Below are positions 12,941 to 63,545 of a stretch of 64,000 bases of DNA, piece after piece. The number at the start of each line of letters is the position of its first letter. Position 1 is the first letter of the stretch. The DNA comes from Zygnema cylindricum (taxonomy: Eukaryota > Streptophyta > Zygnematophyceae > Zygnematales > Zygnemataceae): NCBI GenBank assembly GCA_037447655.1, contig JBBHKE010001320.1, forward strand, positions 114,146 to 178,145. Direction: 5' to 3'. The translations under genes were made by a program, and so were the position numbers. A model generated the notes under the pieces. It ran no database searches. It saw nothing but the letters and a program-made list of their open reading frames with translations, and was not told the origin of the DNA.

Positions 12941-13022
12941 TTAACGGTTAAAGCTAACGGCTACGTTGACTTGACGGACGGCATGTACCAGGATCAATTC
13001 CTGGGTCCGTGAAGCACCTTTT
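12941..13022 (+). promoter_or_regulatory. tRNA-like pol III cassette in D1 3' LTR
   Basis: Antisense to the LTR. The A-box-like segment is AACGGTTAAAGCTAACGGC. The T-arm-like hairpin is CCAGG, ATCAATT, CCTGG (12988-13004), set inside a longer stem GACGGAC/GTCCGTG. It is followed by TTTT at 13019-13022, a pol III terminator. B-box similarity is GGATCAATTCC versus consensus GGTTCGANTCC. No complete acceptor stem is formed, so it is tRNA-derived or tRNA-mimicking rather than a tRNA gene. Confidence 0.55.
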
Positions 13023-13205
13023 GGTAAATCAACGTAATTCACCCCCTGTCTTCTCTAGAGAGTTTAGGTAGCCATGGCTCTAGCTCCCTTTCCAGCCTTC
13101 AGTGACTACAACAAGTGTGGGGGCTTGGTGAGGGGAGTTAGAGGCAGACCGCCTCATCTCTTTTTGTATCCTAATACTGACCGAGAAAATACTCAAATAT
13201 CAACA

Positions 13206-15059
13206 CTCCCCTTATTTTCTAGTCTATTTTCCTTTCAACTTCCACAAACAAGTAAACAAAAACCTCCTCCCCTTTTTCTTTTTCGTTTTTTCCTTTTCCT
13301 TTCATAAAACTTAAGAAAATACTCTCGTATTTAACACAGTGCATTAGATGAACTGAAATAATAATTGCATCACATATTTTATTTAACATCCCACTTTTCA
13401 TAAATCAGAGCAAAGATTTTATCCACCTCATCACTTTTTCATCCACACACAAACTGGTTTCCCTCTTGCAATCCAAACAGCCAGCCCCATCTCTAATCTG
13501 CAACATACACCCAGATGCTAACCCTTTTACAGGCACACCTTCATAAATACCATCACTCTTTTTAGCGATGTCAAACCCATTACCCGCAAAAAATGAACTT
13601 TCCTCACTCTCTCCTATGGATTTTTTTCCACTCTCTCTTTCTAAATTTATTCTCAATAAGTATTTCTCCTACCCTAAACCTTTCATTAAATATTCCTCTT
13701 CTCCCTTATCTTTAAAAACCCCTTCTAGTTTCACTTCTCCCCTTTCCTAGGAATCCGTTGAGGTCTCCCTTTCCGACCAGTTTTCTAATCCTAAAATACC
13801 TATTAAATTATCCTTATTAATTTTATCTTTCCCGTTTTCACTTATGGATCCTAGATCTGACTTTCTCATTTCTAAGTCATCCACTCTACACTCCTTGACA
13901 TCCTCAAGTGCCTCCCCTCTCTTTACTTCCCTTATACCTCCAAAAGCACACAGTTGTTTTCGTGGAATTTGTGTGTACTTTTCTCTCTTCTCCATTCTAC
14001 CGATGTGAAGAAGCTCCAAGATTTCTTCATCCTCTTTCTCCTCTTCCCCTTCTTCCTCCTCATTCACACTCCAACTTCTAAGTTTTTCCAAACGAGGACA
14101 CTCCTCCATATGGTGACCAAGTTCTATACAAAAGAAGCAAACCCCTTTTTCCAAAGCTCCCATTTCTTTTCTTCTCCCTCTCTTTCCACCAAAGTTCCGA
14201 TAAGGTTTACCTTTGTCTTTCTTCCTCTCATCACGCTTCCGCCAGTCACCACCAGCTGTAAATGCAGTCACCCTCTCACTTCCCCTACGAAGCTCGAAGG
14301 TGCTTTCTCTCACAAGTATTATCCCCATGGTGATGCTCCAAGTCCACGAGGAGCCATCCATTCCCTGCATACGGTAAATGATGTCTTCGTACTCATCTGG
14401 GAGTTTCATGATTAGTGTATTAATCTTTCTCTCCTCATATTCTACATATCCCGCACTAGCAAGCTCAACATATAACGCAGCAATATCATTGCAAAACTCT
14501 ATCATGCTACTGCCTTTATAAACATAGGCCTCTATTTCTTGTTTTACTAACTGCTGCCTCTGTATATTCTCACTCTTATAAATCTGAATTAGTGTTTCCC
14601 AAATTTCCGAAGACTTGATTAGACTTAAAAGATTGATAGCTATGGACTTAGACACATATCTAAGTATGAGATGTTTTGCTATAGTGTTTTTATATTTCCC
14701 AAATTTTCCTGTCATTTTCTTCAGTTTTTGGTTCAGTTATAACCCCCACATGTGGAACCATAGCCGAGAGCCTATCTCCCCTCACCATCGGTGTTCCTTT
14801 TCCCTTCTCCCTTTTTTCCCCTTCCACGGCAAGGTTTTTCCCTTCACCTTCCGTTGCATCTGAACTCCGGTTGATATTCTGGGCAGCCTCAGATGATTCT
14901 CCATAGTAAGCTCCTTCAAGGCCGGGTGGCAGAAATCTCACTTATCCCGAAACAATTCCCAATAAGTGTTTCTCGAAAAGCAATCCCTCCATCGTGAACT
15001 CCCAATAAGTAAAGTATGTTCCATCGAACATAGGCACCCTGGATGGTGGGCCCATAACT
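13206..15059 (-). CDS. gag: Gag region of D1, degenerate, with CCHC knuckle
   Basis: The gag frame starts at the ATG at 15077-15079, inside the 5' LTR, and crosses the primer-binding site, giving a V-M-G-P-P-S-R start. It meets a stop after about 43 codons; frames at 14941-14690 and 14715-13747 (322 codons) continue it. The latter holds the helical copia-type gag domain and a CX2CX4HX4C knuckle (CFFCIELGHHMEEC), followed by a Glu-rich tail. A further piece at 13656-13405 (GNGFDI...IYEGV...GLASGC) is shared with D2 and is not a known pol domain. No enzyme motifs (DTG/DSG, DDE, YxDD) are present. Stops show this copy is probably inactive. Confidence 0.75.
15047..15059 (-). other. Primer-binding site, half-tRNA initiator Met type
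   Basis: Directly after the 5' LTR, the minus strand reads AGTTATGGGCCCA. It is complementary to the anticodon stem-loop of eukaryotic initiator tRNA-Met (…TGGGCCCATAACC…) rather than to a tRNA 3' end. The same priming mode is established for Drosophila copia and yeast Ty5. Its position fixes the LTR end at GAATTTCA. Confidence 0.8.
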
Positions 15060-16403
15060 TGAAATTCTATGGGCTCCATTGCCACACAGAATTCGCAGAT
15101 CAAAAGAAGCTAATATAGATAGTGCCGACTCCAAGTTTCTATAAACCCAAATGATTGACCCTTTGACAATCAGAACCCCATTACAGCTTCACCCTTGTGA
15201 AATAAGACTTTCTTTGTGCTAGTTTCACCACAGAATGCAAAGTTAGAATATGAGATTTGGACACATTCACCCACTTTGACTTTCCATTAGAAATGCAGCC
15301 ACCCTGGCAAGCAAACACTCCGACCGACTACACCCCTATGTAGCCTCGACTCCCCCTGAGTCTGCAGCAACAATAATCATTGATATTGGTCAGCTGAATT
15401 GATAGTTATGGCTGGCCAAAGTTTGCCATTTATACAAGGTGCTCTTTGGGAGAGGCAACTACCTACCTGAAATATTCTAAGTCCTAAACCCCTTTCTAAA
15501 CCCTCTAGTTCTCAGGTACGGACCAATCAAATTACTGTATAGTATATAAAGGTATAGGTGGCGGTGTACCTTTTGTACGGCCATCGTACAACTTGGCTAA
15601 AAACTTAACACATGTCCTATTCGGATTCGCTCTTATAATCCCCGGAATTCCTGCTTCCAAATCTTATCCCTCCACGTGGCGCCAGGTCATGCCACGTCAG
15701 AAAAACGGTACCGTACAAAAAGTACAGGTGCCGGAGTACTTTCTGTACGGACATTGTACGATGATGTTATAATGTGACATTTGTCACATCCGGATTTGTT
15801 ATGTTCCTTTTCGGAGATTCCGCAACTTGTACAATGTCGCCACGTGTCATTCAGAGTGGTGACGTCCGCAAACGCCAAAAACCTGTTCCGCGATCTCGGC
15901 ATTTATTCCGGCCGTCCGATTTAAACTGGCATTCAATTTTAGCCGTCGAAAATTAGTGCGCGGTATGTGTTTCGATAGCGAAACAAATGCGCGGTATCCG
16001 TTCCGTCCCCGTACCGTACTCCGTACTAAATTAAACTGTATCTATGTACTAAGTATCTATTTCCCGTTAAATGAATTAATCTCCGTGTAACTATTTATAT
16101 ATTTATCGAACTCTATATATCCAACGCTAGTTCTAGACTTAAAGGTTAAAGCTAACGACTACGTTTACTTGACGGACGGCACGTACCAGGATCAATTCCT
16201 GGGTCCGTCAAGTACCTTTTGGTAAATCAACCTAATTCACCCCTTGTATTTTCTAAAGAGTTTAGGTAGCCATGGCTCTACCTCCCTTTCCAACCTTCAG
16301 TGACTACAACTAGTGTGGGGGCTGGGTGAGGGGAGTTAGAGGCAGACCGCCTCAGCTCTTTTTCTATCCTAATACAGACCTAGAAAATACTCAAATATCA
16401 ACA
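15060..16403 (-). repeat. 5' LTR of D1
   Basis: 1344 bp, collinear with the 3' LTR and showing only scattered substitutions and small indels. It carries the same inverted repeat (15711-15750), CACGTGTCAT site, TATA-like box and antisense tRNA-like cassette (about 16141-16220 on plus, B-box region CCAGGATCAATTCCTGG, terminator TTTT at 16217-16220). Confidence 0.85.
16141..16220 (+). promoter_or_regulatory. tRNA-like pol III cassette in D1 5' LTR
   Basis: Copy of the cassette at 12941-13022. The outer stem GACGGAC/GTCCGTC is perfect here and the terminator TTTT is retained. Confidence 0.55.
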
Positions 16404-16590
16404 ATGAACTTATCTTTGGGAAATTCTGAGGGTTCCACATGTCGATGAGCCCCCTCCACAACTGGAGGTAGAACAATTGAGGAATGAGGTCGAAATTCTC
16501 AATCGTCGGGTGGCGGCTCAAGAAGTAGCGATGATTGGGGTTCGTCCGTTGATTGAAAATTTGACTCGAGAGCTTGCACAGGTTAGGTGA
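16404..16590 (+). pseudogene. Unknown protein, right part after D1 insertion
   Basis: After one copy of the duplicated 5 bp, the frame interrupted at 11860 continues without a stop for about 60 codons and ends at TGA 16588-16590. The segment is Glu/Leu/Arg/Val-rich with heptad spacing (VEQLRNEVEIL and following), so a C-terminal coiled coil is likely, suggesting oligomerisation. In-phase resumption across the insertion supports a real coding sequence before the retrotransposon landed. Confidence 0.5.
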
Positions 16591-17689: not shown

Positions 17690-18737
17690 TGTAGAAACTA
17701 ATGGTTTTATTAGTATTTTCTAGGTCTGAAAAGAAATATAGAAGTCGAGGCAGTCTATCTCTAACTTCTCTCTCCAACTCTCAAACTTGTCGCAGTCACT
17801 GAGAAATTGGAGAGGAAGCTAGAGCCATGGCTACCTTGGCTATCCTGAGGTTTACGGGAATTCTATATTAGGGTTTATATATTTAATTAAAATGTATGTG
17901 CCGGCGGCAGGATTTGATCCTTGTACCTGCCGGCCGGCAGACACATGTAGCCGGTAGCCCTAGCCGTTTCATCTAGCGGTAGTGTTACCTAGCATATAGT
18001 TTGATAATTATTTACATATGTATACAAGCGATAAACCATTTAACTGAAATGAATTACGGGATACATAGATCTAGTAATATATAATATACGACTTACGGTA
18101 CGGACAAAAATCAGTACCGCGCATTTGTTTCGTAAATGAAACAAATACCGCGCATGTATTTATTACGGCTACGATTAAAGCCGAATTTAATCGGACGGCC
18201 GGGATTAGCGCCGAGATCGCGGAGGAAGATTTCGGCGGTTTATGGCCATCGCCACATCGGATGACGCGTGGCAAAATTCCGTTGGATTGTGGAAACTCGG
18301 GAGATTATGGCACCGAATCCGGATTTGACATGTGTCGACATTTTGGCCATGTCGTACAATGTCCGTACATAAAGTACACCGGCAGCTGTACTTTTGCGTA
18401 CGGAACTCAATTCTGATTGGTTCCGTACATCAGTAGATAGAGTCTGTGAGAGAGATAGGACTTAGAAAAATTAGAAGATAGGACCCTCTCTCCCAGAGAG
18501 CTTCTGTACAAAAGGTCAACTTTGACCCTCCATAACTTACTGCTCAGGGGAGCAAATTCAGAGATTCTTTTTGCTATCGACTCAGGGGAGTCTTGTCTTC
18601 ACAGGGGTGAAGTTGGTCAGAGTTTTTGTCTGCCAGGGTGGCAGTTATTTTTGCTTAAACACAAAGGGGTCAGGATTATCCTAGAGGCTTCTTGGAAGCT
18701 GTCCACTCTGAGGACTTATGGAGGTCTCAGAGTTTCA
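17690..18737 (+). repeat. E-type LTR (TGTAGAAA...AGTTTCA)
   Basis: 1048 bp LTR starting TGTAGAAACT and ending GAGTTTCA, with the TATTTTCTAGGTCT box at its start. Left flank is tgtgg (end of the host region), right flank is gatgt (inside copia pol). The flanks do not match, so the junction is recombinant rather than a simple solo LTR. It contains the GTAC inverted repeat (about 18364-18403), a GACACATGTC-like site, and the antisense tRNA-like cassette. Confidence 0.7.
17889..17975 (-). promoter_or_regulatory. tRNA-like pol III cassette in E-type LTR
   Basis: On minus: GCCGGCCGGCAGGTACAAG, then GGATCAAATCC (B-box-like), then GCCGCCGGC, ending in TTTT (17889-17892). Antisense to the LTR, like the others. 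Confidence 0.5.
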
Positions 18738-19980
18738 GATGTAAAGACAGCCTTTTTGCATGGAGAACTAGAGGAGACCATTTACATGCAGCAGCCTGAA
18801 ATGTATGCTGAACCAGGAAAAGAGCATTTAGTATGTAAACTGCTAAAATCGTTGTACGGCCTAAAAACAGGCCCCAAGGCAATGGAATCTAAAACTTGAT
18901 GAATTCTTAACTGGTCTAGGCTTTAAAAGGACAAGCTCTGATCACTCTGTCTATGTTCTACAAGGTGAGGATGGAATAGTATATATAGCGGTATACGTAG
19001 ATGATTTACTATTAGTCAGCAAATCAATGGCTGAAATTAACAAAATTAAAACTGCTTTGAAATCACAGTTCGAGATGAAAGACCTCGGTGAGGCAAAATA
19101 TATTTTGGGTATTCAAGTAGAAAGGGACAGGAAAAACAGATTAATAAAATTGACTCAAAAGGAGGCTATTGGAAACATGTTAGATGAATATGGAATGCGG
19201 GGGGCAAAAGGATGTGTAACACCAATGGAGTTTCGGCAAAGGTTAGAGGGGGAAGAAAAAAAACCACGTGTTATTGTCAGAGAAGTCTATGAGTCAGGGG
19301 AGGATGATCCTATGACATTGATACCTTACAGACAGATAGTGGGAAGTTTAATTTATTTCATGAACTGTACCCGTCCGGATATTGCTGCAGCAGTTGGGGT
19401 ACTGAGCAGAAGTCTAGAAAATCCGAGAAAATCTGACTTTGATGCAGCAAGAAGAGTTTTAAGATACTTGGCAGGAACCAAAGACCTCAAACTCACACTA
19501 GGCGGAGGAGAAGTGAAGCTACAAACATGGAGTGATGCAAGCTATGGCGATATGCCGAGTCGAAAATCCACCACGGGATTCGTTCTGCAAATTGGGAACG
19601 GAACTTGCTGTTGGAGCAGCAAACTTCAAAAGGTCACGGCACAATCGACGATGGAATCAGAATATATGGCAGCAAGCTCGGCCCTCAAAGAACTCCTATG
19701 GGTGAAATCCATGTTACAAGAGTTGGGATACATGCAGGTAGGTCCACAAGTGATCTGGTGTGATAACCAGGCTGCCATTACCATTGCTTCTAACCCAAGT
19801 CACCATTTCAAAAGCAAGCACATGGATGTAAGATTACACTTTGTAAGAGAAAAGGTGTTCTCTAGAGTGATTAAATTATGCTATTTGCCAGATGCAAAAA
19901 TGATTGCTGATATGCTCACTAAAGCTCTTCCGGCTCCTAAACTGAAATATTGTAGGGACGCAGTGGGATTAAGTGAATAG
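18738..19980 (+). pseudogene. pol: Copia-A pol fragment: RT C-terminus and RNase H
   Basis: Starts in the RT motif [21 protein letters not shown] and breaks by a one-base insertion near 18875, just before the QW(N/Y) motif. It continues through the catalytic VYVDDLLLV (about 18988) and the DLGEAKYILGIQ motif. RNase H follows with its conserved acids in WSDASYGD, ESEYMAASSALKELLW and WCDNQAAI, and the terminal HHFKSKHMD and DMLTKALP motifs. Stop at 19978. It lacks gag, protease, integrase and the RT N-terminus, cut by the LTR at 17690-18737. Apart from the indel the frame is long and open, so this is a relatively young fragment. Confidence 0.9.
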
Positions 19981-23080: not shown

Positions 23081-24076
23081 TGCAATTCTGTGTCCCCCAT
23101 TAGATCACTGAATTCAAGAAGCCTTTAGATAGCTTTTGGCTAGCCCTCATTCAACTTGGATCACTGTCACCCAAGCAAAAAAACAGTAAATCAAACTGTA
23201 CCCCTATGCAGTTTGGACTCCCCTAAGTCCCCAGAAAAATGAATCACTGAAAATGCCCAACCAGACAATTAGATATCAAGTGGCAAAGATGCCAATATAT
23301 ATACAAGCTTGTTGGGAGAAAACGGCTACCTCCTCAATCCTCTAAGTCCTAAACCCCTCTCACAACCCCTATATACTGATGTACGAACGAATCAGAAGGC
23401 TGTACAGTACAGAAAGGTACTAGGGCCGATGTACTTTTTGTACGGCCTGTGTACGACAAGGCCATAGAGTGGACGTATGTCTCCTCCAAACTTGTCCTCG
23501 CGCTCCTTAGGATTCCCGCTTCCCAATAATATCTTGCCACTTATCGACAGGTCATGTCACATTTGAAAACCACCAAGGCTGCTATTCCGAGATCGCGACG
23601 ATGATGCGGACCGTCGGATCCAAACTAGCTTTTAATGATCGCCGTCCAAAATAACAAATGTTCGGTACATTTGTTTTATACGCACTAAAACTTTACTAGT
23701 TTCTATGTCCTTATTATTATTCGCTTGAACGAATTAATGATCTTGGTAATGTTTAAACAGCTATCAAACACTATGTATCCTAAAGGACTACTATGTCAGA
23801 CCGGTAAGAGCTGAGAGCTACGCCTCGCTCTGCCGGTCGGAGGTTCGAGTCTTGCCGGACTCAACCTTTTTGTTGAGAGTGACTTAGGTCACTCTTTAGT
23901 CTTGCCGATGGAGCTGAGGCAACCATGGCTCCATCGTCCTCTCTCTCCTTCAGTAACTATAACAAGTATGGGGGCTAGAGAGAGAAGGTGGAGGCAGGTT
24001 GCCTGTGCTTTTTCTTTTAGTTATTTCACCTAATTAAGACCTAGAAAATACCTTTCATAAATCAGTAATTTCAACA
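23081..24076 (-). repeat. Copia-C 5' LTR, minus strand
   Basis: 996 bp, TGTTGAAATT...GAATTGCA in minus orientation. It is inserted in another minus-strand gag at its zinc knuckle (right flank ctagt). It carries the antisense tRNA-like cassette, the GTAC inverted repeat (about 23405-23445), and GAGTGACTTAGGTCACTC near 23878. Confidence 0.8.
23796..23871 (+). promoter_or_regulatory. tRNA-like pol III cassette with near-consensus B box
   Basis: Plus strand, antisense to the LTR. The A-box-like ACCGGTAAGAGCTGAGAGC is followed by GGTTCGAGTCT (23842-23852), one base off the pol III B box GGTTCGANTCC, then CCGGACTCAACC and TTTTT (23867-23871). The surroundings resemble a tRNA 3' half. It does not fold into a complete cloverleaf. 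Confidence 0.6.
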
Positions 24077-24975
24077 CTAGTTTCTTACAATAGTGACATA
24101 AACCATTGGGAGCCTTTGGACCGAACTCGCCGGTCTGATTTTTATGCTCCCCACCCTCTGTAATTTCCGACTGGTCTCCAGAATCCTTGTTCCTCCAATA
24201 AGTCCCAGCTGCCAACGCTTGTCCACTCTTTCCTCCCCTTTGGATCTCAATCGTTTTCTCCCGAACGAGAATCATTCCTACCATTGAGTTCCATATCCAC
24301 CTTGAGTCGGACAAGTCTTATACACGGTTTACTATGTTCTCGAACTCATCGGGAAACTTCATCAGTAAACAATTAACCTTTTGCTTTTCACTAAATTCTT
24401 TTCGAACACTCTCTAGCTCCATGAAAAGTGTAGCAAGCTCATTGCAAAAATCCAACTTCTTCCCCCCTTTGTATACTTACTTCTTAAAATTCTGATCTGC
24501 CAATTGTTGTTGTTGAATTGTACCACTTCGGTACATCTCTATGAGAGCCATCCAAAGATTGGATGCCGTTTCTACCTGCAAATGAGGACATGCAAGCCCT
24601 TGAGTGAGATGGCGGAGGATGAAGTGTTTTGCCGCAATATTGTTAAAGTCCTAGGTATCAGTATCATTCTCGTAGTTCTTTGGAATAGGTGACATGAATG
24701 TCGAACCAATTGTTATTGGTGTGGTCGTCTCCTTCTCTTTTCCTTCGTACACCACCTCCCTTTCCTTTGTCTCCTCCGTTGAAGACGGATCTGCTTTCTT
24801 GATTAATCGGCTTCCTCCAAACCTTGGAGGGATTCATAGACTTGATGGACTCCACACTCGTCAACTCACTATTTTTCAAAACCTTTTCTCGCATAGAGAT
24901 CATATCATCATACTTTCCCAGTGTATGAAGCCAATTCTAATAAATATGGGTACCCTAGAAGGTAAGCCCATAACT
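24077..24975 (-). pseudogene. gag: Gag of a second minus-strand element, truncated at zinc knuckle
   Basis: From the primer-binding site at 24963-24975 (AGTTATGGGCTTA) gag runs leftwards. Fragments at 24903-24664 and 24314-24077 show the copia-C gag core, a basic linker and the start of the knuckle (CHYCKK), cut by the LTR at 23081-24076. Multiple stops and frameshifts. Confidence 0.65.
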
Positions 24976-26044
24976 TGCAACTCTGAGACCTCCATAAATC
25001 CTCAAAATGAACAGCTTGCACGAAGCCTCTAGGATAACCCTGACTCCTTTGTGTTTCAGTAAAAATAAATGGCACTCTGGCTGACAAAAACTATGACCAC
25101 TCTCACCCTTATGAAGGGAAGACTCCATGGAGTCGATAGCAAAAATAATCTCCGAATTTGCTCCCCTGAGCAGTAAGTTATGGAGGGTCAAAGTTGACCT
25201 TTTGTACAGAAGCTCTATGGGAGAGAGGGTCCTATCTACCAATTTTTTCTAAGTCATATCTTTCTCAAAAACTGTATCTACTGAAGTACGGCACCAATCA
25301 TATTACATTGCCGTACACAAAAGTACAGTTGCCGGTGTACTTTTTGTACGAATATTGTACGACATGGCCTAATTGTCGACACATGTCATATCCAAATTTT
25401 GTCCCGTAATCCTCGGAGATGCCGCGATCCAATGTAATTGTGCCAGGTGCCATCTGATGTGGCGATGAACACAAACTGCCGAGATTCACTTCCGCGATCT
25501 CAACATTCTTTACGGCCGTTCGATTGAATACAGATTTCAATCGTAGCCGTCATAAATACTTGCGCGGTATTTGTTTCGTTTAAAGAAACAAATGCACGCT
25601 ACTCGTTTTTTATCCATACCGTCATCCGTTATTTTACAGAAATGAATCTATGTATCCCGTAAACAGTTGCCGTTAAATGAATTATCATACGTTGTAACAT
25701 TTAAAAAAATAACAAACCCTATAGCATGTAACTCTAGTCTTAGACTAAATAGATAAGTCTACCGGCTACCGACAGCTTTATCGGACGACAGGTACCAGGA
25801 TCAAATCTTGGATTCGACATCACCCCTTTTTAGTAAATAAACTACCTATCCATAAATCAACTAATATATTTCCTGTAATTCTATAGATAGCCTAGGTAGC
25901 CATGGCTCTAGCTTCCTCTCGAACTTCTCAATGACTGCGACAAGTGTGGGAGTTGGAGAGAGAAGTTAGAGGCAAACTGCCTCGGATTATTTATGCATCT
26001 CATTTTAGACCTAGAAAATACTAAAATAACCATTAATTTCTACA
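24976..26044 (-). repeat. E-type LTR, minus strand
   Basis: 1069 bp, TGTAGAAATT...GAGTTGCA in minus orientation, followed on its inner side by the half-tRNA site at 24963-24975. Its outer flank (26045 on) is plus-strand copia-B sequence. It carries the GTAC inverted repeat (25304-25345), a GACACATGTCAT site, the TTTGTTTCG/GAAACAAA inverted repeat near 25571, and the tRNA-like cassette. Confidence 0.75.
25745..25831 (+). promoter_or_regulatory. tRNA-like pol III cassette in E-type LTR
   Basis: A-box-like AGATAAGTCTACCGGCTAC, B-box-like CCAGGATCAAATCTTGG, terminator TTTTT at 25827-25831. Antisense to the LTR. Confidence 0.55.
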
Positions 26045-26638
26045 TTTACAAATGTGCATCAAACGCCTCCAAAGAGTATATACTATGCTTGTGGGATGAG
26101 TGGTCAAACCTCAGCTCAGGGTGATGTATCTTTAATGGTATATGTGGGGGAAAAGTCGGTAGAGAGAACTCTTCACAATGTTTTTTATGTTCCAGACTTT
26201 AAAATGAATCTTTTCTCTACATCATTAGAGGAAAGCAAAAGCTTTTAAGTCATTATGAAAGGAGGTAGGCAGGTTGTTAGTGAGAAAGGAAAAGTAGCAA
26301 TAACACGAACTAGAGATGCTAGCAAAATGTACCGGATGGACATGGCTGAATAGACCATGGATCGGAAAGAGTTCTACACCTAATAAATCGTGATGATCTT
26401 AGTCTGTCACAAATGGCTTCGGCTGGAGGCGTCCACTATATGGTCACATTTACAGATGACTACTCGAGGTACACCAAAGTTTACTTCATGTAACATAAAA
26501 GTGAAAAGTTTACTCACTTCAAACACTACAAAGCATGGGCGGAAAAGCTTCATAGAGTTCCAATATTGGCGTTGAGATCGGCGACGGGGGAGAATACACG
26601 TCAAAGGAATTTGAAGAATTTCTCCTTCAAGAAGGTAT
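26045..26638 (+). pseudogene. Copia-B protease and integrase fragments
   Basis: Plus-strand protease-region residues (CGMSGQTSAQGDVSLMV, then YVPDFKMNLFSTSL) are joined after a deletion to integrase (HYMVTFTDDYSRY-like, GGEYTSKEFEEFLLQEG). It ends exactly where a copia-B LTR begins at 26639. Stops and a frameshift near the second catalytic Asp. Homologous to 30460-31290. Confidence 0.7.
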
Positions 26639-27462: not shown

Positions 27463-27541
27463 GTTTGATTTGTGAGTCAAGATTTACAGTGTGTCAAAAG
27501 GTGCTGTCTGTGAGGGATTCTTGTAAAGCTTCAGCTTAAGT

Positions 27542-46851: not shown

Positions 46852-46856
46852 TCAAC

Positions 46857-50962: not shown

Positions 50963-51166
50963 CACCTCTTTTCTCTTTACTTCCCTTATACCTCCAAAAC
51001 ACCTTGTTGCTTTCGTGAAATTTGTGTGTGCTCTTCTCTCTTCCCCATACTACTGATGTGGAGAAGCTCCGAAATATCTTCACCCTCTTTTCCTTTTCCC
51101 CTTCTTCCTCCTCATTCACATTCCAACTCCTAATTTCTTCCAAACAAGGATATTCGGCCATATAGT
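50963..51166 (-). pseudogene. gag: D3 gag, C-terminal part
   Basis: Minus strand, continuing from 58784 across the nest. The conserved CLEEIRSWNVNEEEEGEKE tail after the zinc knuckle, as in D1 and D2. The left end is cut at 50962/50963. A further frameshift follows. Confidence 0.7.
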
Positions 51167-51347
51167 TGTTGAAATTTAAGTATTTTCTAGGTCTATATTA
51201 AGATAAAAAAAAGTAGAGGCAGTGTGCCTCTAACTTCCTTCTCCAAGCCCCCACCCTTTTTGTAGTTATTGAAGGCTATATAGGGAGATACAGCCATGGA
51301 TGCTTACGACTTCTAGAGAGACAGGAGTAGATATTGGTATAATTACC

Positions 51348-51430
51348 AAAAAATGATTTGGCTGACCGAAGAATTGATCATGGTACCTACCGTCCGTCAA
51401 ATCATTGGTAGCATTAAGCTTTGTCATATA
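51348..51430 (-). promoter_or_regulatory. tRNA-like pol III cassette
   Basis: Minus strand: GACGGACGGTAGGTACCAT, B-box-like ATGATCAATTCTTCGG, then GCCAAATCA and TTTTTT (51348-51353). Antisense to its LTR. Confidence 0.5.
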
Positions 51431-51851
51431 AGTTTAGGACCAACGCTGAAGAATATAGGGTTCGATAGATATTTAAAGATTTACATGTAGGATAATTCAT
51501 TTAACGGAAAAAAGATTGTTACAACAACGACACAGTTAGTTTTAGTAAGAATTAGGGTACCGCACGAAACATATGTGCGATATATTTGTTTCCATGGCTA
51601 GAATTAAAAGCTGGTGTTCATCGAATAGTTGTGGTAAGAGCCGATATAGCGAAAAGAGCGTTTTGGCGTTTTTCGCACGCCGCCACTTCGGATGACACGT
51701 GGCAATATCTTACGCGTTTACGAAATCTCCGGAGCGCAAGATAACAAGTGCGAATGTGATAGATGTCATTGATAGGGACATGCCATACAAATGCCATACA
51801 TAAAGTATTGTGACACCTATACTTTTATGTACGGTACATTCTTGTGATTGG

Positions 51852-52890
51852 TGTTGAAATTAATAGATTTCTAGAGTATTTTCTAGGTTTAAATATGTTA
51901 GTATAAAAGAAAAGAAAAGGACGGGCAACCTGCCTCCACCTCTCCTCTTTCTAGCCCCCATACTTGATGCAGTCACTGAAGGATAGAGAGGGTGGTTGAT
52001 CCATGGCTGCCTTAGTTCAACAGACAGTTATTTTTAGTAGGTTACTAAAAATATACCTGACGTATCCGCGATTTGATCCCGGTACCTGCGGTTCGTCAAG
52101 TTGGCCGATAGCGGTCAGCTTTATCCTATAAGACTAGGACCAATGCTAAATGATATAGTATATGATAGACATATATATATTTAGGGAGGAACAAATCCAT
52201 TTAACTAAAATTGTATACGGCATGCATAGATACAGTTTTATGAAAGTACAAAGTACCATTCTATTTCGAAACGGATACCACACATTTTGTTTCGAAACTG
52301 AAACAAATGTCACGCAAGTATTTATAACGGCTAAGATTGCGTCTCGCTGCAAATCCAACGGCGCACATTATTGCCGAAATCCCGCAGTGGTCACTTTGGC
52401 GTTTTGTGATGTGGCATGACCTAGAGCCACGTGGAGAGATGACATTCGATCATGGGAATTCCGAGGAATGTACGGACGAGTGAAAAGCGGACACGCGTCC
52501 GCTTAATAGCCTTGTCGTACATAGGCCGTACAAAAGGTACACCGACAGTAGTACTTTTTGGTACGGTACAGTAATCCGATTGGTCCGTACTTTAGTAGAT
52601 AGAATTTATTAGAGGGAATCAGAACTTAGAAAATTTTGGTAGGTGGTCACCTCTCCTTTTGAGAGTTTGTACAAATTGGCATTGTTACTGCCTCATAACT
52701 TATCACCTGGTTGGCGGTTTTCAGTGATTCTTTTTGTTACAGACTCACGGGAGTCCAAGCTGCATACGAGTGCAGTCAAACTGTCATTTTGCCTTCCTGG
52801 ACAGCAGTGGTTGTGGCTTGAAGTGGGTTAGTTAAATACTATCTAAAGGCTCTCTGTATTCTGTGGTACAATGGAGGTCACAGAATTGCA
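51852..52890 (+). repeat. 5' LTR of C1
   Basis: TGTTGAAATT...GAATTGCA. The gag start codon is at 52871-52873, inside the LTR. Contains the tRNA-like cassette on minus (52047-52130), GTAC inverted repeat near 52527-52565, and TTTGTTTCG/GAAACAAA around 52290. Confidence 0.85.
52047..52130 (-). promoter_or_regulatory. tRNA-like pol III cassette in C1 5' LTR
   Basis: Minus strand: A-box-like AGGATAAAGCTGACCGC, GACGAACCGCAGGTACC, B-box-like GGGATCAAATCGCGG, terminator TTTTT (52047-52051). In the 3' LTR copy (57400-57500) the T-run has decayed to TTT. Confidence 0.5.
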
Positions 52891-53850
52891 CGTTATGGGC
52901 CCACCCTCTAGGGTGCCCACCTTCAAGGGATGTGGGGTCATCTTTTGGGAAGCCATGATGATGGCAGCTTTGTGCGAAAATCGATACTGGGGTATTGTCT
53001 CAGTGGACAAGTGAAACGTCCACCTACAGTAACTCCACCAGGATTTGGAGGTGTAAGGTTTCCTGCAGCAACGGCTGCCTCAGCAGAGGAGGCAGATGAT
53101 GGGGACAACTGTCTGTCCGAAAAGAGGAAAGGGAATAAGACACCCCTCACTCCTATTGCCACAGTCCCGGGATCGGCGATCGTGAAGACCGCGGAGAACG
53201 ATACTCAAATGTGGAAGATATAAACATGGCTGCCAAGAACTTTATTCTGAGGCACCTCACTCAAGCTTTGGCCACTCCTCATCTTCACATTTACAAGGCC
53301 GAGGAGTTGTGGGTGAGTTTGGTGAAGATTTATAGAGCTAGAACTAATCAGGAGCTCTAGTTGGCTGAGCAAAAGCTAGTGAGTTACACTTACAAAGGAA
53401 GAAAGATGCTAGATTACTGTTTTTATCTATCTTGTTTGTATATGGAGATGGAAAGTCCCGGATGGACAGGTACAATGAAAAGGAAAGTTAACACCCTTAT
53501 CATGAAGTTACCAAATGAGTACGAGAATATAGTTTACCGAGTACAGGAAATGGCTGATAGTTTATGGAAATGGAACACAGTGGTCAGGATGACACTTGTG
53601 CAGGAAAACACAATGGAGATTAGGAGAGGAGGAAAGAGCATTCAAGCTCTATACGGAGCAGGGGACCGATAGGGGAAGGACCCGAAGAAACCGTACAAAG
53701 GGGAAAGAGATCATTCTGGAGGACCGAGGCCCCCAAAGGGTCTTTGTCATTTTTGCAAAAAGCCGGGACACTTTATCGTACACTGTGTCAAGCTGTCGGA
53801 GCTGAGGCTCCAAGTATACCCTGGAGGGGGTTCTTCCAGAGGGAAGAAAA
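52871..53850 (+). pseudogene. gag: C1 gag with start codon inside the LTR
   Basis: ATG 52871 gives six codons in the LTR, then continues across the primer-binding site (H-V-M-G-P-P-S-R). The homologous start is kept in the minus-strand copy at 23100 and in D elements. A stop follows after about 43 codons; frames at 52930-53223, 53361-53672 and beyond carry gag (TLIMKLPNEYENIVYRVQEM) and a CCHC knuckle near 53748-53790 (CHFCKKPGHF then HCVKL; Cys replaced by His-Cys arrangement). At least three frame disruptions. Confidence 0.75.
52891..52903 (+). other. Primer-binding site of C1
   Basis: CGTTATGGGCCCA immediately after the LTR end GAATTGCA; complementary to the initiator tRNA-Met anticodon arm except for the first base. 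Confidence 0.8.
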
Positions 53851-56800
53851 AGGCACTTGTGGTTACAAAAGTGACAGGAGAAACCGAGGATGAGTCTTCT
53901 GTGGAGGATGGGGAGCTTCTTCTTAACGAGAATCTGGAGGAGAACGAGATCCCTAGTAGACACAAATGTGCTTTTGGAGAAATTTGGGAGGCTCCACAAG
54001 AAGGATGGATCATTGACTCAAGTGCATCCATGCATATGTGTCGTGATAAGGAACTTTTCACTAAGCTAATAAAGATCCCTACTGTAGAGATAGAGTATGG
54101 GGATGGGAGAGTGGTTACTACAGATCTAGTGGGATCACTAGATCTGAAAGTCTTAGTGGAGGGTAAGACTTCTATACTTACATTCTCAATTGTACTCTAA
54201 AAATCTTGTCTCTATGTCTGTGTTAGATGACAAAGAGTTTGATACCTTTAATAGAAAGGGAGTCTTTACAGCTAAGTATGGGGATGAAGTTTACTTCAGG
54301 GCAGATAAGGGTAGCCAAGGAATGTTTAGGCTTAAACTGAGTAATGAAAAGAAGAATGCTTACTATGTTGGTGTTCCTAAGTTGATGATTTGGCATAAGC
54401 GGTTGGGGCATGTACATTTTGATAGGTTGAGGGAAATGAAAAAGCTTGGGGTAGTAGAAGGCATTCAGTTTGGGGATAATGAAATGATGGATGATTGTAG
54501 TGGCTGTGCTCAAGGTAAGGCTCACAAACTTCCATTTCACAAAGCCGCCACATATAGAGGTGAGAAAGTATTAGATTTGGTCCACACAGATATATTTGGG
54601 GACCTGCAAAAGTACCTTTGGTTGGAGGAAAAAGGTTTATGATGACAATAACCGATGACTAGTCTAGATACTCATTAGTATACTTTCTAAAAACAAAGTC
54701 TGAAGCATCAACTTACTTCAAAGAATATAAAGCATGGAGTGAGAAGTTGCATGAAACCCCATTAAGAGGATAAGGAGTGATAATGGGGGGGAATATACCT
54801 CTAACCAGTTTGAGGAATATCTAAGAGATGAGGGAGTACAACACCTGAAAACTATACAATATAACCTGGAACAAAATGGGGTAGCTGAGAGGTTGAATCG
54901 AACACTAGGAGATAGTGCATGCAATATGTTGGCCGACAAGAAAATAGGAAAGAGATTTTGGGCAGAGGTAATGAACTGTGCCAACTACATTAAGAATAGA
55001 GTCCTTACCTCCGCTGTAAAGGGAGTGACACCTTATGAGAGATGGGTTGGAAGGAAACCAGATATTTCACACCTTAATGTGTTCGGTAGCCAAGTTTACA
55101 GTCTTGACACAGATAAGAAAAACTGGAAACTAGATGCTAAGGGAAAACTTCGATACTTTGTGGGATATGATGAGGATGTTAAACGGTATAGAGTCTATGA
55201 CTTATTAAAGAAGGATATCATACTGGTCAAACACCTAGTTGTCATGGATGAAGGAAAGTCATTTGATTAATTCAAATATACAAACAAGATAAAAATCAGA
55301 TTCGAGTCCGAAAGTGAGGAGAACTCGGTCGTTCCCGAAAGAGACATGAGTGAAACCGTGATTGCAGATTCAGGGGAGATCCGAGATACAGAAGACTTAC
55401 CGGAAACCTCACATACTCCTATGGACCTCGAGGAGATAGAAGAAGGGGGACTAGATTCGGCTTCCATGTACAGGGGAGTCGATGAGACAGTGAGAAGAAA
55501 CCCAAGACTTCCATCCATTCCAGCTTCGGAGTTTGAGGGAGGAAGGAGGAGCAGCAAAAAGATACAAGAAAAACAGGTCGCTCATAAGGTAACTAAAGCT
55601 ATCTTACCTAGATGAGCCTCAGTCTTACTCGGAGTCAGTGAATAGTCTAGAGAAAGAAAGATGGATTGGAGCCATAAATGATGAGATGGCTTCTATCATG
55701 GAAGCAAATACTTGGGAACTAGCGGATTGTTCTCCAAACAAAAAACCTATTTGGTGTAAATGGGTATTTAAACTAAAACAGAACCCAGATAATACTATTG
55801 AGAGATATAAGGCTCGATTGGTAGCGAAGGGGTTCACCCAAAAGGAGGGGATTGACTATGAGGAGACCTTTCCTCCAGTTGTTCGGTTCCCATCAGTAAG
55901 GATTCTCCTCAGTCTGGCTGCAGCGGAAGACATGGAAATCCTCGAGATGGACATTAAGACTTATTTTCTTAATGGTGAGTCAGAGGAAGAAATTTCCATG
56001 AGACAACCCAAGGAGTTCGTGGAAGAAGGAGAAGAGAGCAAAGTTTGCTGGCTCATAAAGTCCTTATATGGACTGAAGCACGCTCCTCGACAGTGGAATA
56101 AGAAACTAGATGAGTTTCTAACCGGTTTGGGATATATCCGTATCAGCTCTGACCATTCTATCTATATGTTTGAAGATGAGAATGGTGTCATTTTTATTTT
56201 AATTTATGTGGATGATCTGTTTGTGTTGAGTAAGTTTTTGGAGAAGATCAATAGGCTAAAGAAAGATCTTAGGGGCAGATTTGATATGAAGGATTAAGGG
56301 GAGGCAAAATATATTTTGGGGATCCAAATGGAGAGAGATAGGGGGAAGAAGATTATCAAACTTACTCTGAAAGAGGCAATAGGAAATATGCTTGAGAAAT
56401 TCCAGATGGAAAATGCTAATAGTTGTACCACTCCCATGGACTTGAAAAAAGTAAGTGATGGGAGTGTAGAAGGAGGAGTGATGATCTTAGACGATCAGAT
56501 GTGTCCACAGGAGAGAGAGTTTATGAAGTTTATCCCTTATAAACAGGTCGTAGGAAGTTTAATCTGTTTTATGAAATGTACCAGGCCGGACATAGTAACA
56601 ACAGTTGGAGTATTCAGTAGGAGTCTTAATGATCCTAGAAAGAGAGATTGTGAGGCAGCCAAGAGAGTCATGAGATATCTGGTTGGAACCAAAAAATTAT
56701 GGTTGCATTTGAGAGGGGAGCACACTGATATCACCACTTGGAGTGATGCTACTTATGAGGATGCACCTATGAGAAGATGCACTTCTAGATATGTTTTGTA

Positions 56801-57218
56801 TGTGGGGAAGGTGCTTGCTGTTGGAGCACTAAGCAACAAAAGGTGGTTGCCTAGTCTACTATGGAGGCTAAGTATATGGAGTCTTGTTCTGCTGTAAAAA
56901 AACTAATGTGGGTGAAGTCATTGTTGCAAGAACTGGGATATATGAAGGAGGGAGTGCATGAAATCTTTTGCAATAATCAAGCTGCAATCGCAATTGCAGC
57001 TTATCCAAAACACCATTTCAAAGCAAAACATATGGACATAAGATTAAGCTTCGTAAGAGAAAAAGATGAAAATAAAATTTTAAATCTTGTGTATAGACTT
57101 GATGAAGAAATGGTGGCTGACATGATGACCAAACCTGTGCCCTCTCCTAAATTAAAATATTGTCGGGAAAAATGCGGGTTGAAACAAAAATTAAAATTAG
57201 ACTTGAAAATAAGGTCAG
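53851..57218 (+). pseudogene. pol: C1 pol: protease, integrase, RT, RNase H
   Basis: Protease at 53995-54200: IDSSASMHMCRD, with the catalytic DSG changed to DSS. Integrase: zinc finger in KRLGHVHFDRL...CSGCAQGK (54395-54520), first Asp in HTDIFG (54583), second Asp in the SDNGGEYTS-equivalent near 54775, third in EQNGVAERLN (about 54870). RT at 55638-56297 has KWVFKLKQNPD, LVAKGFTQKEGIDYEETFPP, KSLYGLKHAPRQW and IYVDDLFVL. RNase H at 56316-57218 has TWSDATYEDAPM and NQAAIAIAA (the catalytic Asp before it is Asn: CNNQ). Disrupted by stops at about 54660, 55268, 55612 and 56295, and by frameshifts. Confidence 0.85.
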
Positions 57219-57526
57219 TGTTGAAATTAATAAATTTCTAAAGTATTTTCTAGGTTTAAATATGTTAGTATAAAAGAAAAGTAAAGGACGGACAACCTGC
57301 CTCCACCTCCTCTCTCTAGCCCCCATACTTGTTGTAGTCACTGAAGGATAAAGAGGGTGGTTGATACATGGCTGCCTTAGTTCAACAGGCAGTTATTTTT
57401 AGTAGGTTACTAAATATATAACTCACGGATCCGGGATTTGATCTCGGTACATGCGGTTCGTCAAGTTGGCCGATAGCGGTCAGCTTTATCCTATAAGACT
57501 AGAACTAATGCTAAGTGATATAGTAT

Positions 57527-57593
<67 letters not shown>

Positions 57594-58315
57594 TTATATA
57601 TATATTTAAGGAGGAACAAATCCATTTAACTAAAACTGTATACGGCATGTATAGATACAGTTTTATGAAAGTACAAAGTACGATTCTTTTTCGAAACGGA
57701 TACCACGCATTTTGTTTCGACAGTGAAACAAATGTCGCGCAAGTATTTATAACGGCTAAGATTGGGTCTCGCTGCAAATCCAACGGCGCACATCATCGCC
57801 GAAATCCCCGAGTGGTCACTTTGACGTTTTGTGATGTGGCATGACCTCGAGCCACGTGGAGAGATGACATTCGGTCATGGGAATTCCGAGGAATATACGG
57901 ACGAGTGAAAAGCGGACACGCGTCCGCTTAATAGCCTTGTCGTACATAGGTTGTACAAAAGGTACACCGGTAGTAGTACTTTTTGGTACGGTACAGTAAT
58001 CTGATTGGTCTATACTTTAGTAGATAGAAGTTATTAGAGGGAATAAGGACTTAGAAAATTTTGGTAGGTAGTCACCTCTCCCTTTGAGAGTTTGTACAAA
58101 TTGACATTTTTACTCTCTCATAACGTATCGGCTGGTTGGCCATTCTGAGTGAATCTTTTTGCTACGGACTCACGGGAGTCCACGCTGCATAGGGGTGTAG
58201 TCAAACTGTCATTTTGGCTTCCTGGACAGCTGTGGTTGTGGCTTGAAGTGGGTTAGTTAAATACTATCTAGAGGCTTCCTGTATTCTGTGGTCCAATGGA
58301 GGACACAGAATTGCA
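57219..58315 (+). repeat. 3' LTR of C1
   Basis: 1097 bp. The gag-pol frame overlaps its first ~20 bases. Matches the 5' LTR except for the (TA)n expansion and scattered changes. Ends GAATTGCA before gttgg. Confidence 0.85.
57530..57607. repeat. (TA)n microsatellite in 3' LTR of C1
   Basis: About 39 TA units with two interruptions. The 5' LTR has only a short TATATATATTTA at the same place, so the expansion happened after insertion. Confidence 0.95.
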
Positions 58316-59760: not shown

Positions 59761-60913
59761 TGAAAGTTTGTGACCTCCATTCCCCCCACAGAATTTGCAG
59801 ATCCAAAGAAGCTTATATAGATAGTGCCAAATCTAAGTTGATACAAACCCAAATAATTGACACCTTGAAAGTCATAACCTGAATAGAGCTTCATCCATGT
59901 GAAAGAAGACAACCTGTGTGCTCAGTTCCCCAACAAAGTGCAATGTTAGATTATGAGTATTTGGACACATTCCCCTACTTTGACTTTCCCTTGTAAATGC
60001 AGCCACCCTGGAAAAAAAAATCTCCAACCTATTACATGCTTGTGTAGCCTAGACTCTCATGAGTTAGCAGCAAAAAGAATCACTGAATTTGCTCTCGTAA
60101 GTAGTTAGTTATGGCTGGCTAAAGATGGCCTATAAATACAAAGGCACTCTAGAAGAGAGGCGCCTACCTACTATTTTTTCCAAGCCCTAATCCCCGCTCT
60201 AAATCCTCTACTACTGAAGTACGCTAACAATCACAAGACTGTACCGTACATAAAATTAAAGGTGTCGAAATATATCCTCTACGGCATTTGTACGCTATGG
60301 CCATAATTATGACATCTGTCACATCCTGACTTGTTAGCGTGCACTCCGGAGATTCTGTAAACCCGTAAGATGTTGCCAAGTGTCATCCAGAGTGGTGGCG
60401 TTCAAAAACTGCCAAGGCGGCCATTTCAAAATCTCGGCTCACACCATGGCCGACGATCAAAGTCAACTTTTGATACGGACCGTCGAAATAAATGTTTGTG
60501 ACATTTATTTCGTATGGTATATAAGGTATAGTGGGTTTTATGCTTTAATATTCTGTTATATTAGTTAAATAAAATCTTCAGCATATACATAATTAAATGT
60601 CTATTGTACCGTATATATTTTAGTACTGTTCATAGTCTATAAGATAAAGCCAACGGCTTCCGGCTATTTTGACGGACGTTAGGTACCAGGATCAAATCAT
60701 GGTTCCAACGGCCCATTTTTGGTACAGACTAAGTATTAAGCCTATCTCTGTCTCCTTGGACAGCATAGGCTGCCATGATTCTATCTCTCTCTTCGGTCCT
60801 CAGTGACTACAACAAGTATCGTGACTGAACAGTGGAGCGAGAAGCAAACTGCCTTTGCTGACTTTCTCTTTTTATTTTTCCTAATTGACCTAGAAAATAC
60901 ATGAATTTCAACA
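59761..60913 (-). repeat. 5' LTR of D3
   Basis: 1153 bp, TGTTGAAATTCATG...AACTTTCA in minus orientation, right flank gagag. It carries the tRNA-like cassette and decayed versions of the GTAC inverted repeat and CCAAGTGTCAT site. Confidence 0.75.
60640..60720 (+). promoter_or_regulatory. tRNA-like pol III cassette in D3 LTR
   Basis: A-box-like AAGATAAAGCCAACGGC, GACGGACGTTAGGTACC, B-box-like AGGATCAAATCATGG, TTTTT at 60716-60720. Antisense to the LTR. Confidence 0.55.
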
Positions 60914-60981
60914 GAGAGCATGTTGGCATTTAACTTAGCTGCAAAATTGGAATAGATTCACAAAGCATTACGTTGAATTTA

Positions 60982-62258: not shown

Positions 62259-62346
62259 CGTTGAAATCACTAGATTTATAGAGTATTTTCTAGGTCTAAA
62301 TAGCTTAGTAAGAAAAGAAAGTAAAAGCGCAGGCAATCTCCCTCCA

Positions 62347-63347
62347 TGTTGAAATCACTAGATTTAGGGGAGATATTTTCTAGGTCTTAATAGATTAGAA
62401 TAGCTAAAAGAAAAAACGTAGGCAACCTGCCTCCATCTTCTCTCTCTAGCCCCCATACTTGTTGTAGTCACTCAAGGAGAGAGAGGGCGGTGGAGCCATG
62501 GCTGCCTCAGCTCTTTAGGCAGGACTAAAGAGTGACCTAAGTCAATTTCAACAAAAAAGTTGAGTCCGACAGGACTCGAACCTCCAACCGACAGAGCGAG
62601 GCGTAGCCGTCAGCTCTTACCGGTCTGTCGTAGTAGTCCGTTAGGATACACAGGGTTTGATAGCTATTTAAACATTGGCTAGATCATTAATTTGATTAAC
62701 GGAATAACAAATTGAGGACATAGAAACTAGTTGAGTCTTTTAGTACGCACGAAACAAATATACCGTACATTTGTTATTTTGAACGGCTAACATTAAAAGC
62801 TGGTTTGGATCCCACACCCCTCACCATCGGCGAGATCCCGGAATGACCGCCTTGGCGTTTTTCGGACGTGACATGACCTATCGACACGTGTCAAGATATC
62901 ATTGGGAAGCGGGACTCGGGGAGCGCGAGGACAAGTGTGAAGGAGACAGAAGTCCATTCCATGGCCTTGTCGTACACAAGCCGTACAGAAAGTACATCGG
63001 CCCTTGTACCTTTCTGTATTGTACAATCTTCTGATTGGTTCGTACATCAGTAGATAGGGGTTGTGAGAGGGGTTTAGGACTTAGAGGATTGAGGAGGTAG
63101 CCGCCTCTCTCCCTATAAGCTTATATAAATATTGGCATCTTTGCCACCTGATAATTAATTGCCTGGTTGGGCGTTTTCAAAAATTCTTTTTGCTGTGGAC
63201 TCAGAGGAGTCCACACTGCATAGAGGTGCAGTCAGATTGTCTACTTGCCTGCTTGGGTAGTAGCTATTCTAGTTGAAAGTGGGTTAGTGATAAACTACTT
63301 AGAGGCTTCCTGAATTCTGTAGTCCAAATGGGGGATACAGAATTACA
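62347..63347 (+). mobile_element. C-type solo LTR with perfect TSD
   Basis: 1001 bp TGTTGAAATCAC...AGAATTACA, flanked by ctcca at 62342-62346 and 63348-63352. It ends with the retained gag ATG region (ATGGGGGATACAG). Inserted in the LTR 62259-64000. TATA-like TATATAAAT at 63122-63130. Confidence 0.85.
62553..62630 (-). promoter_or_regulatory. tRNA-like pol III cassette with consensus B box
   Basis: Minus strand: A-box-like ACCGGTAAGAGCTGACGGC, B box GGTTCGAGTCC (plus 62572-62582, exact consensus), TGTCGGACTCAAC, then TTTTTT (62553-62558). Antisense to the LTR. Confidence 0.6.
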
Positions 63348-63471
63348 CTCCACCCCTTTGCTCTACCCCCCATACTTGTTGTAATCACTGAGGGAGAGAG
63401 AGAGAGTAGTGGAGCCATGGCCGCCTCAACTCATTAGGCAGGACTAAAGAGTGACTTAAGTCACTCTCAAC

Positions 63472-63545
63472 AAAAGGTTGAGTTGGTTAGGACTCGAACC
63501 TCCGACAGGCAGAGCGAGGCGTAGCCGTCAGCTCTAACCGGTCTG
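63472..63545 (-). promoter_or_regulatory. tRNA-like pol III cassette with consensus B box
   Basis: Minus strand: A-box-like ACCGGTTAGAGCTGACGGC, B box GGTTCGAGTCC (plus 63490-63500, exact consensus), TAACCAACTCAACC, then TTTT (63472-63475). Antisense to the LTR. Confidence 0.6.

Follow-up and report, generated by a model that had tools for sequence, protein, structure and literature searches.

We analyzed a 64,000-nucleotide stretch of the Zygnema cylindricum genome (contig JBBHKE010001320.1, positions 114,146 to 178,145), referred to in the following as the window, and found that the long terminal repeats (LTRs) of a copia retrotransposon family carry a real and widespread, decayed tRNA-like unit in their U3 region, oriented antisense to the LTR. 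The pattern of evolutionary rates within the unit fits an internal promoter for RNA polymerase III (Pol III), whose activity is putative. Judging from the sequence, we consider the chances about even that these U3s contain a tRNA-derived, antisense Pol III promoter of type 2, or a binding site for TFIIIC, divergent from the presumed RNA polymerase II (Pol II) TATA box.

The antisense unit and its copies

On the antisense strand of the LTR, the unit reads TAG.CT.A..GG..A.AGC (the A-box region), followed by a T-loop-like core (the B-box region) starting 35-43 nt beyond A21 and then by a run of four to six Ts (T4-T6). It is present in 18 U3s of the window, 13 of the D/E type (subgroups a-d) and five of the C type (subgroup e). 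The initial annotation had placed it at 17 sites, all of which were confirmed; the copy at 57410-57501 (-) was added. The copies and the reference primer-binding site (PBS) are as follows:

12936-13024, +: antisense unit in LTR 11861-13218 (-), with TGGACTTAACGG, GGATCAATTCC and T4
16134-16222, +: antisense unit in LTR 15060-16416 (-), PBS at 15058 (-)
17886-17975, -: antisense unit in LTR 17690-18738 (+), exact GGATCAAATCC
23793-23873, +: antisense unit, C type, in LTR 23081-24078 (-), PBS at 23079 (-), with GGTTCGAGTCT and T5
25741-25833, +: antisense unit in LTR 24976-26046 (-), PBS at 24974 (-, 2 mismatches)
34846-34937, -: antisense unit in LTR 34644-35700 (+), nested inside another LTR
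35720-35802, -: antisense unit in LTR (+) from ~34466, split by nested LTR 34644-35700
37021-37109, +: antisense unit in the 5' part of an LTR, 36717-37305 (-)
40043-40131, +: antisense unit in LTR 39157-40330 (-), PBS at 39161 (-), internal T5 between the boxes
41505-41595, +: antisense unit in LTR 40480-41790 (-)
46855-46934, -: antisense unit, C type, in LTR 46652-47536 (+, 3' end cut), exact GGTTCGAGTCC and T4
50161-50240, -: antisense unit, C type, in LTR 49958-50976 (+), damaged B box GGTTGGAGTAC
51346-51436, -: antisense unit in partial LTR 51166-51850 (+), lowest box score
52045-52136, -: antisense unit in 5' LTR 51852-52890 (+) of copia element 51852-58315, PBS at 52892 (+)
57410-57501, -: antisense unit in 3' LTR 57219-58315 (+) of copia element 51852-58315, T-run broken (ATATATTTAG), absent from the earlier list
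60633-60722, +: antisense unit in LTR 59761-60918 (-), PBS at 59759 (-), internal T4 between the boxes
62551-62631, -: antisense unit, C type, in LTR from 62347 (+), nested inside another LTR, exact GGTTCGAGTCC and T6
63470-63549, -: antisense unit, C type, in LTR (+) from ~62260, split by a nested LTR and resuming at 63348, exact GGTTCGAGTCC and T4
52892-52905, +: PBS GTTATGGGCCCACC, which sets the LTR orientation; its complement is in the anticodon arm of the host's initiator tRNA-Met (tRNA-iMet)

A profile built from the U3 flank upstream of the unit recovered exactly these 18 U3s, 16 of them whole and two split by nested LTRs; two further weak matches fell within LTRs already among the 18. 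Outside the window, 20 stretches of 10 kb each were sampled from contigs with matches to the C-type A box, with coordinates picked blind (200 kb in total, 5,990 bases of which are N). The U3-flank profiles, the only means by which LTRs were found in this sample, gave 25 matches, and after four weak ones were dropped, all 21 remaining LTRs had the antisense unit. In 353 Mb of the genome, there are 2,707 occurrences of the C-type A-box motif.

The orientation of the unit was established from the PBS. A match to GTTATGGGCCCACC with at most two mismatches lies directly 3' of six unit-bearing LTRs, in the sense of the LTR and covering five subgroups, and in all six the unit is on the opposite strand, as the initial annotation had it; the remaining LTRs were oriented by alignment. 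A seventh match, at 27602, follows the LTR of another family. Since the host tRNA-iMet genes, whose sequence equals that of plant tRNA-iMet, hold the exact complement of GTTATGGGCCCACC, the PBS matches the anticodon arm of this tRNA. In this it resembles the PBS of Drosophila copia and Ty5, which are primed by a half-tRNA (PMC5371799).

Nearly all copies had been said to keep a terminator, and this was borne out: T4-T6 follows the B box in 17 of the 18 window copies, and T4 in 36 of 39 when the 21 additional LTRs are included (34 of 36 parsed by script, and two of the three unparsed copies, read by eye). Just beyond the T-run, all five C-type units have a 20-nt palindrome, AGAGTGACTTAAGTCACTCT, found nowhere else in the window at up to three mismatches. 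It is exact at 46833-46852, 50139-50158 and 63448-63467, and has one mismatch at 23876-23895 and three at 62529-62548.

The motifs of the initial annotation fared unevenly at the level of exact letters. Its A-box motif matched 17 window sites at up to three mismatches (16 in cassettes, as we also call the units, and one elsewhere), with 1.63 expected and none of 100 shuffled sequences reaching 17, but it was exact in only four of the 18 copies, and its 5' side overlaps the canonical A box, TAG.CT.A..GG. GGATCAAATCC, given as the B box of the D/E copies, had 13 window matches at up to one mismatch (11 in cassettes, 1.37 expected), but was exact in only one of the 13 copies. GGTTCGAGTCC, described as exact in C copies, was so in three of five, but not in the other two (five window matches, four in cassettes, 0.73 expected). 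Because these are family motifs, their excess over shuffles shows only that they are repeated. In a hand count of 24 distinct genome places, which were retrieved with the A-box pattern and are thus biased to it, GGTTCGAGTCC was exact in 17, and C56 was changed in three (L021, L024 and L027).

Scored against canonical A and B boxes, the cassettes reached 12-16 of 18, and 10 of the 18 cassettes reached 15, a score attained by 1.2% of background stretches (0.27% for a score of 16). All 18 window cassettes matched 11-13 of 13 universal tRNA positions; 12 were reached by 1.9% of background stretches (0.4% with T4) and all 13 by 0.14% (likewise 0.14% with T4). The order and spacing of A box, B box and T-run were those of a Pol III type-2 gene in 12 of the 18 window copies, which had at least 12 of the 13 invariants plus T4; in the remaining copies, the match to this layout was weak or broken. 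When the whole window was scanned for 12 of 13 invariants plus T4, there were 22 matches, comprising 12 cassettes, a tRNA-like LTR at 47692 and nine places elsewhere (one with 13 of 13), compared with a mean of 8.0 in 20 block-shuffled windows. The tRNA-box scan is weakly specific.

Evolutionary rates and a putative internal promoter

The initial annotation had expected the boxes and the T-run to be more conserved than the flanking U3. Tested on up to 37 LTRs, this held for 13 invariant columns and the T-run, which were slower than U3, but not for the contiguous A and B windows, which were ordinary, nor for the A box by itself. The 13 positions are the universal tRNA positions and R9 of the A-box consensus, and the column counts were known before the invariant test. 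In 16 window copies, these positions changed by 0.077 parsimony steps on average, whereas the cassette columns had 0.169 (p 0.001) and U3 had 0.155 (p 0.007); the p value fell to 0.0007 once the T-run was included. The other cassette columns, at 0.193 steps, were faster than U3 outside the unit, at 0.150. The 21 new copies alone gave p 0.0016 against the cassette, 0.008 against U3 and 0.002 with the T-run, the last value being rough since an insertion in the copy on L050 separates the T-run columns. The split LTRs (units 35720-35802 and 63470-63549) were dropped from these rate tests, and they and L050 3222, which has the internal insertion, from a test on 36 copies. In the latter, three alignment methods agreed, with p 0.005-0.010 for the B box against U3 and 0.004-0.05 for the T-run.

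Rates at single positions were compared in 30 copies of the larger subgroup, with the seven C-type copies, 35720-35802 and L050 3222 dropped. The B-box invariants (positions 53, 55, 56, 58 and 61) had a mean rate of 0.021, compared with 0.126 for the T stem, 0.129 for the acceptor part and 0.108 for U3 outside the unit. The letters at the slow box positions are those that TFIIIC would read. Because the B-box invariants are slow, while the T stem varies at the background rate and without covariation, it is the TFIIIC-type letters that have been kept and not the pairs of the tRNA fold. In the C type, position 54 has T instead of A, 57 has G instead of A, and 59 differs as well; these changes are compatible with a B box. 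Taken as a whole, the sequence pattern suggests that the unit may still recruit the machinery that transcribes tRNA genes.

These unequal rates bear on the explanation that the unit is a neutral relic, in which a tRNA gene, a short interspersed nuclear element (SINE) or a piece of a Helenus-like element was inserted antisense into an ancestral U3 and merely inherited. In local alignments the unit does resemble host tRNAs, as well as the tRNA-like portion of a terminal-repeat retrotransposon in miniature (TRIM) of Helenus type in the same genome, against which the C-type copy 23793-23873 scores 39, but a relic would not be expected to have slow boxes and a slow T-run amid columns faster than the surrounding U3, and we regard this explanation as improbable.

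If the unit is a Pol III promoter, TFIIIC would bind its A and B boxes and position TFIIIB 33-41 nt upstream of the A box, on an AT-rich stretch that would be the element's own TATA-like box. The A box adjoins the presumed Pol II TATA box, the B box starts 35-43 nt past A21, and on the antisense strand the region 33-41 nt before T8 has an AT fraction of 0.82-1.00 per position. By raw count, a TATA-like hexamer lies 29-48 nt upstream of T8 in 37 of 39 copies. Sense Pol II and antisense Pol III transcription would then start from one divergent core promoter, whose TATA-like box would serve both TFIIIB and TFIID, and the T4-T6 run would serve as the stop signal of the Pol III unit. The predicted product is a structured RNA of ~100 nt, antisense to U3 and complementary to the genomic RNA at its 3' end, where U3 lies. 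Equally, TFIIIC might occupy the site without transcription. That the TATA box doubles as a TFIIIB site, that the antisense RNA pairs with the U3 end of its own genomic RNA, and that an LTR family of thousands of copies thus encodes its own Pol III regulator is a possible extension, but a doubtful one.

Several observations weigh against an active promoter. The A-box positions alone gave p 0.12-0.14 against U3 (three alignments, 36 copies). Considered as contiguous windows, the boxes are ordinary, with 29% of U3 windows as conserved as the B box and 42-70% as conserved as the A box (46% match the TATA box and 9% the T-run); a 5' block and the GCCATGGC block are the most conserved in U3, above the boxes. 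For the 13-position pattern slid along U3, 16 of 247, 21 of 261 and 19 of 247 shifts gave values as low; once the T-run was added, the counts were 0 of 225, 6 of 239 and 0 of 225, and for the mirrored pattern with the T-run the count was 3 of 417. Positions 44 and 46-48, outside both boxes and just before the T stem, are also slow in the 30 copies. The copies share ancestry and represent few independent lineages; since all of them, new and window copies alike, fall into a single family tree, the replication is over copies and not over independent origins. Among background stretches, 22.6% reach 11 of the 13 tRNA positions (4.0% with T4), and two copies owe their score to an A box at a non-homologous place. 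Internal T4 or T5 runs occur in three copies, including a T5 in 40043-40131 and a T4 in 60633-60722, and internal A4 in none, so nothing points to selection against early stops. Sense Pol II by itself accounts for the TATA box, and the start motifs of the plant TATA/CAA rules (CAA/YAAC) were present in only 13 of 39 copies, giving no support.

tRNA likeness, folding and other explanations

No cassette was recognized as a tRNA by ARAGORN or Rfam, and three single cassette stretches searched alone against Rfam at E up to 10 gave none. The stretch 46840-46960 had sub-threshold Rfam matches to tRNA-like families (mascRNA-menRNA, E 0.94; beta_tmRNA, E 0.52). Relaxed ARAGORN was of no use as a detector here, flagging ~190-350 places. 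No T-stem covariation was found over the 18 copies. Since ARAGORN, Rfam and T-stem pairing all fail, the unit was rejected as a functional tRNA gene.

In local alignment against 22 distinct tRNA-type host sequences, the 39 copies had a mean z of 2.04 on the antisense strand vs. 0.33 on the sense strand, and in 22 of the 39 at most two of 50 shuffles were as good; the host set was partial (Phe, Lys, Gln, Cys, Arg, Trp and Asn, later also iMet). Against 23 phage T5 tRNAs plus the window's tRNA-like sequence, the 18 window copies gave 1.31 and -0.37, respectively. These similarities support a tRNA origin of the unit, as initially presumed from its boxes, but the best-matching host tRNA differs between copies and no single parent tRNA stands out. 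Two of the 22 sequences come from the LTRs of a Helenus-type TRIM, which was the best match for eight copies. Pattern scans of viral and bacterial contigs returned five and three stretches, respectively, which share with the window only matches of 20-25 bases.

Another explanation, attractive because of the likeness to tRNA-iMet, is a second, 3' primer-binding site as in Ty3, whose bipartite PBS reaches into U3 (PMC5371799). In this model, sense U3 RNA would anneal to the T arm of tRNA-iMet, the primer, whose D arm would contact U3. The PBS here does match the anticodon arm of the host tRNA-iMet, which is the best local match among the fetched host tRNAs for 18 of 32 larger-subgroup copies, and the T-arm stretch of L054_9819, read by eye, agrees with it at 19 of 23 letters. 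However, two near-invariant positions, 48 (A in all 30 copies) and 60 (T in 29 of them), are not complementary to tRNA-iMet, the T-stem positions able to pair vary at the background rate, and the C type has an elongator-type T loop and yet the same PBS in its one window copy with a PBS. A primer cut in the anticodon loop, as in half-tRNA priming (PMC5371799), would moreover be without its T arm, and the T-run is left unexplained. We consider this model very improbable.

A rather unlikely explanation, to which we nevertheless give some weight, is that the unit serves as a Pol II cis-element of the usual kind, with a transcription factor binding an inverted repeat located upstream of the TATA box, and that its tRNA likeness is due to chance or remote descent. 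The unit lies just upstream of the TATA box, and the weak specificity of the tRNA-box scan fits a chance resemblance. Over the 18 copies, folding gave a mean z of -2.0 for the antisense strand, ~-2.4 for the sense strand and -1.0 for an upstream U3 piece, with the strongest predicted hairpins in the C type; the fold-test background has an undefined mean and can be read only as fractions (9.2% of 120 below z -2). No RNA fold was shared by all 18 copies. In the larger subgroup there is a hairpin with a covariation of 0.179 vs. 0.109 in shuffled alignments, none of 500 of which reached 0.179, and the C-type copies are predicted to fold as two abutting hairpins; because of these two features, a palindromic Pol II element retains some plausibility. 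On the other hand, double-sided changes (3 vs. 2.9) and pair types (10 vs. 9.9) in the hairpin were not above shuffles, and it is not common to both subgroups, since each C-type copy has only three of nine outer pairs. Most of the slowest positions are tRNA-universal and not in a stem (the T stem averages 0.126, with 0.31 at position 52 and 0.28 at 62), and the subgroups differ at 54 and 57 in ways compatible with a B box.

Relation to known systems and the element family

The closest described relatives are the Helenus elements (TRIMp3; Kojima 2024, PMC10886601), TRIMs with tRNA-like LTR parts known from fungi (mostly rusts), animals and one plant, for which an origin by SINE insertion has been proposed. 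As in Helenus, the LTR contains a tRNA-like sequence with A and B boxes that is mostly not a functional tRNA, known here by resemblance and conservation, and as in most fungal Helenus families, the PBS corresponds to the anticodon loop, commonly of tRNA-iMet (PMC10886601). Helenus elements are non-autonomous, 311-1263 bp long, and not expected to share long LTR stretches with autonomous partners (PMC10886601), whereas the unit described here resides in LTRs of ~1.0-1.36 kb belonging to copia elements with pol domains and not to a short non-coding TRIM. It is also antisense (6 of 6 LTRs with a PBS), unlike the sense orientation that appears to define Helenus.

Other systems are comparable in part. 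Cassandra and Ajax have the promoter sequence of a small-RNA gene in their LTRs, and Cassandra is transcribed from a start within its 5' LTR to an end in its 3' LTR, but these are TRIMs derived from 5S rRNA (PMC10886601), and no 5S rRNA match was found in the window. The U3 microRNA (miRNA) cassettes of foamy viruses (~120 nt) likewise combine a Pol III promoter, hairpins and a terminator, features that are only predicted in our case, and work independently of protein expression (PMC6950176, PMC5807749); they differ in belonging to vertebrate retroviruses, in producing miRNAs and in not being described as antisense or tRNA-derived in the available text. The bipartite PBS of Ty3 shares with our unit a U3 sequence resembling a tRNA-iMet contact, but it works by RNA-tRNA pairing (PMC5371799), and the conserved mismatches at 48 and 60, the background rate of the T stem and the non-matching C type set our unit apart. 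The initial annotation knew of no copia family with such an arrangement; in the literature searched, mostly non-subscription, we also found no description of coding copia elements whose LTRs contain a tRNA-like unit in antisense, but Helenus, Cassandra, Ajax and the foamy-virus cassettes are close relatives in print.

If functional, the unit would give copia elements that encode proteins an antisense Pol III promoter in their LTRs, with a core promoter common to Pol II, and would carry the TRIMp3 idea over from small non-autonomous elements to coding ones. It would offer a system in which to ask whether retrotransposons limit their copy number or shape chromatin through Pol III antisense RNA or TFIIIC occupancy, and would have a bearing on tRNA annotation in repeat-rich genomes.

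The copia elements of the window are degraded, with Pfam matches to RVT_2, Retrotran_gag_2 and Pol_BBD. Element 51852-58315 (+) is a decayed copia with both LTRs present and Pol_BBD and RVT_2 matches in between; its 3' LTR (57219-58315) has a (TA)n expansion at the TATA box that is missing from the 5' LTR. Among the matches listed for the copia proteins (at least 120, with 31-48% identity over the list), the named ones are mostly from plants. For this reason, and because of the plant sequence of the host tRNA-iMet, a rust-fungus host, which the Helenus paper would suggest, was rejected. The gag search found no gag homologue at E 0.001. In the sense-strand alignment, the U3 blocks occur in the order TGTTGAAAT-like start, GTATTTTCTAGGTC, CTTGTTGTAGTCACT, GAGCCATGGCT, A-run, antisense unit, ATATAGGGTTTGATA and TATA-like box. 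The most conserved U3 blocks tested were GTATTTTCTAGGTC (17713-17726 and other U3 starts) and GAGCCATGGCT, which exceed the unit itself. Two LTRs are split within U3 by nested ones, 34466-36720 by 34644-35700 and 62260-64000 by 62347 to ~63347. Elsewhere in the genome, C-type A boxes are spaced ~5.3-5.4 kb apart on contigs C109, C142, C228 and C286 of G000, with three consecutive ones on C109, a spacing that suggests recent elements and tandem arrays sharing LTRs.

The same genome contains a Helenus-type TRIM, L042 7188-7704 (-), with boundaries set by eye: 517 bp, two 229-bp LTRs and a 5-bp duplication (GAGTC). Its tRNA-like part is in sense, and its PBS matches the 3' end of tRNA-iMet at 12 of 13 letters, the terminal CCA being assumed. 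The sole tRNA match in the window, at 47642-47713, is tRNA-Gln-like and probably not functional, because it has a G at position 33. It sits in a 230-bp TG..CA piece (47537-47766), 81-83% identical to the LTRs of L042, which lies at a junction of copia LTR and pol without a duplication; the junction is perhaps a deletion between two such copies.

Two LTR-like stretches of another family, 27104-27602 and 41786-42275, are 87% identical and had no match in the whole-window tRNA-box scan; the PBS-like sequence GTTATGGGCC is found at 27602, 3' of the first. A gypsy-type element remnant at 45630-46376 (-) encodes a Tf2-1-like SH3 and a chromodomain, and its relatives, at least 120 of which were listed, are 30-48% identical.

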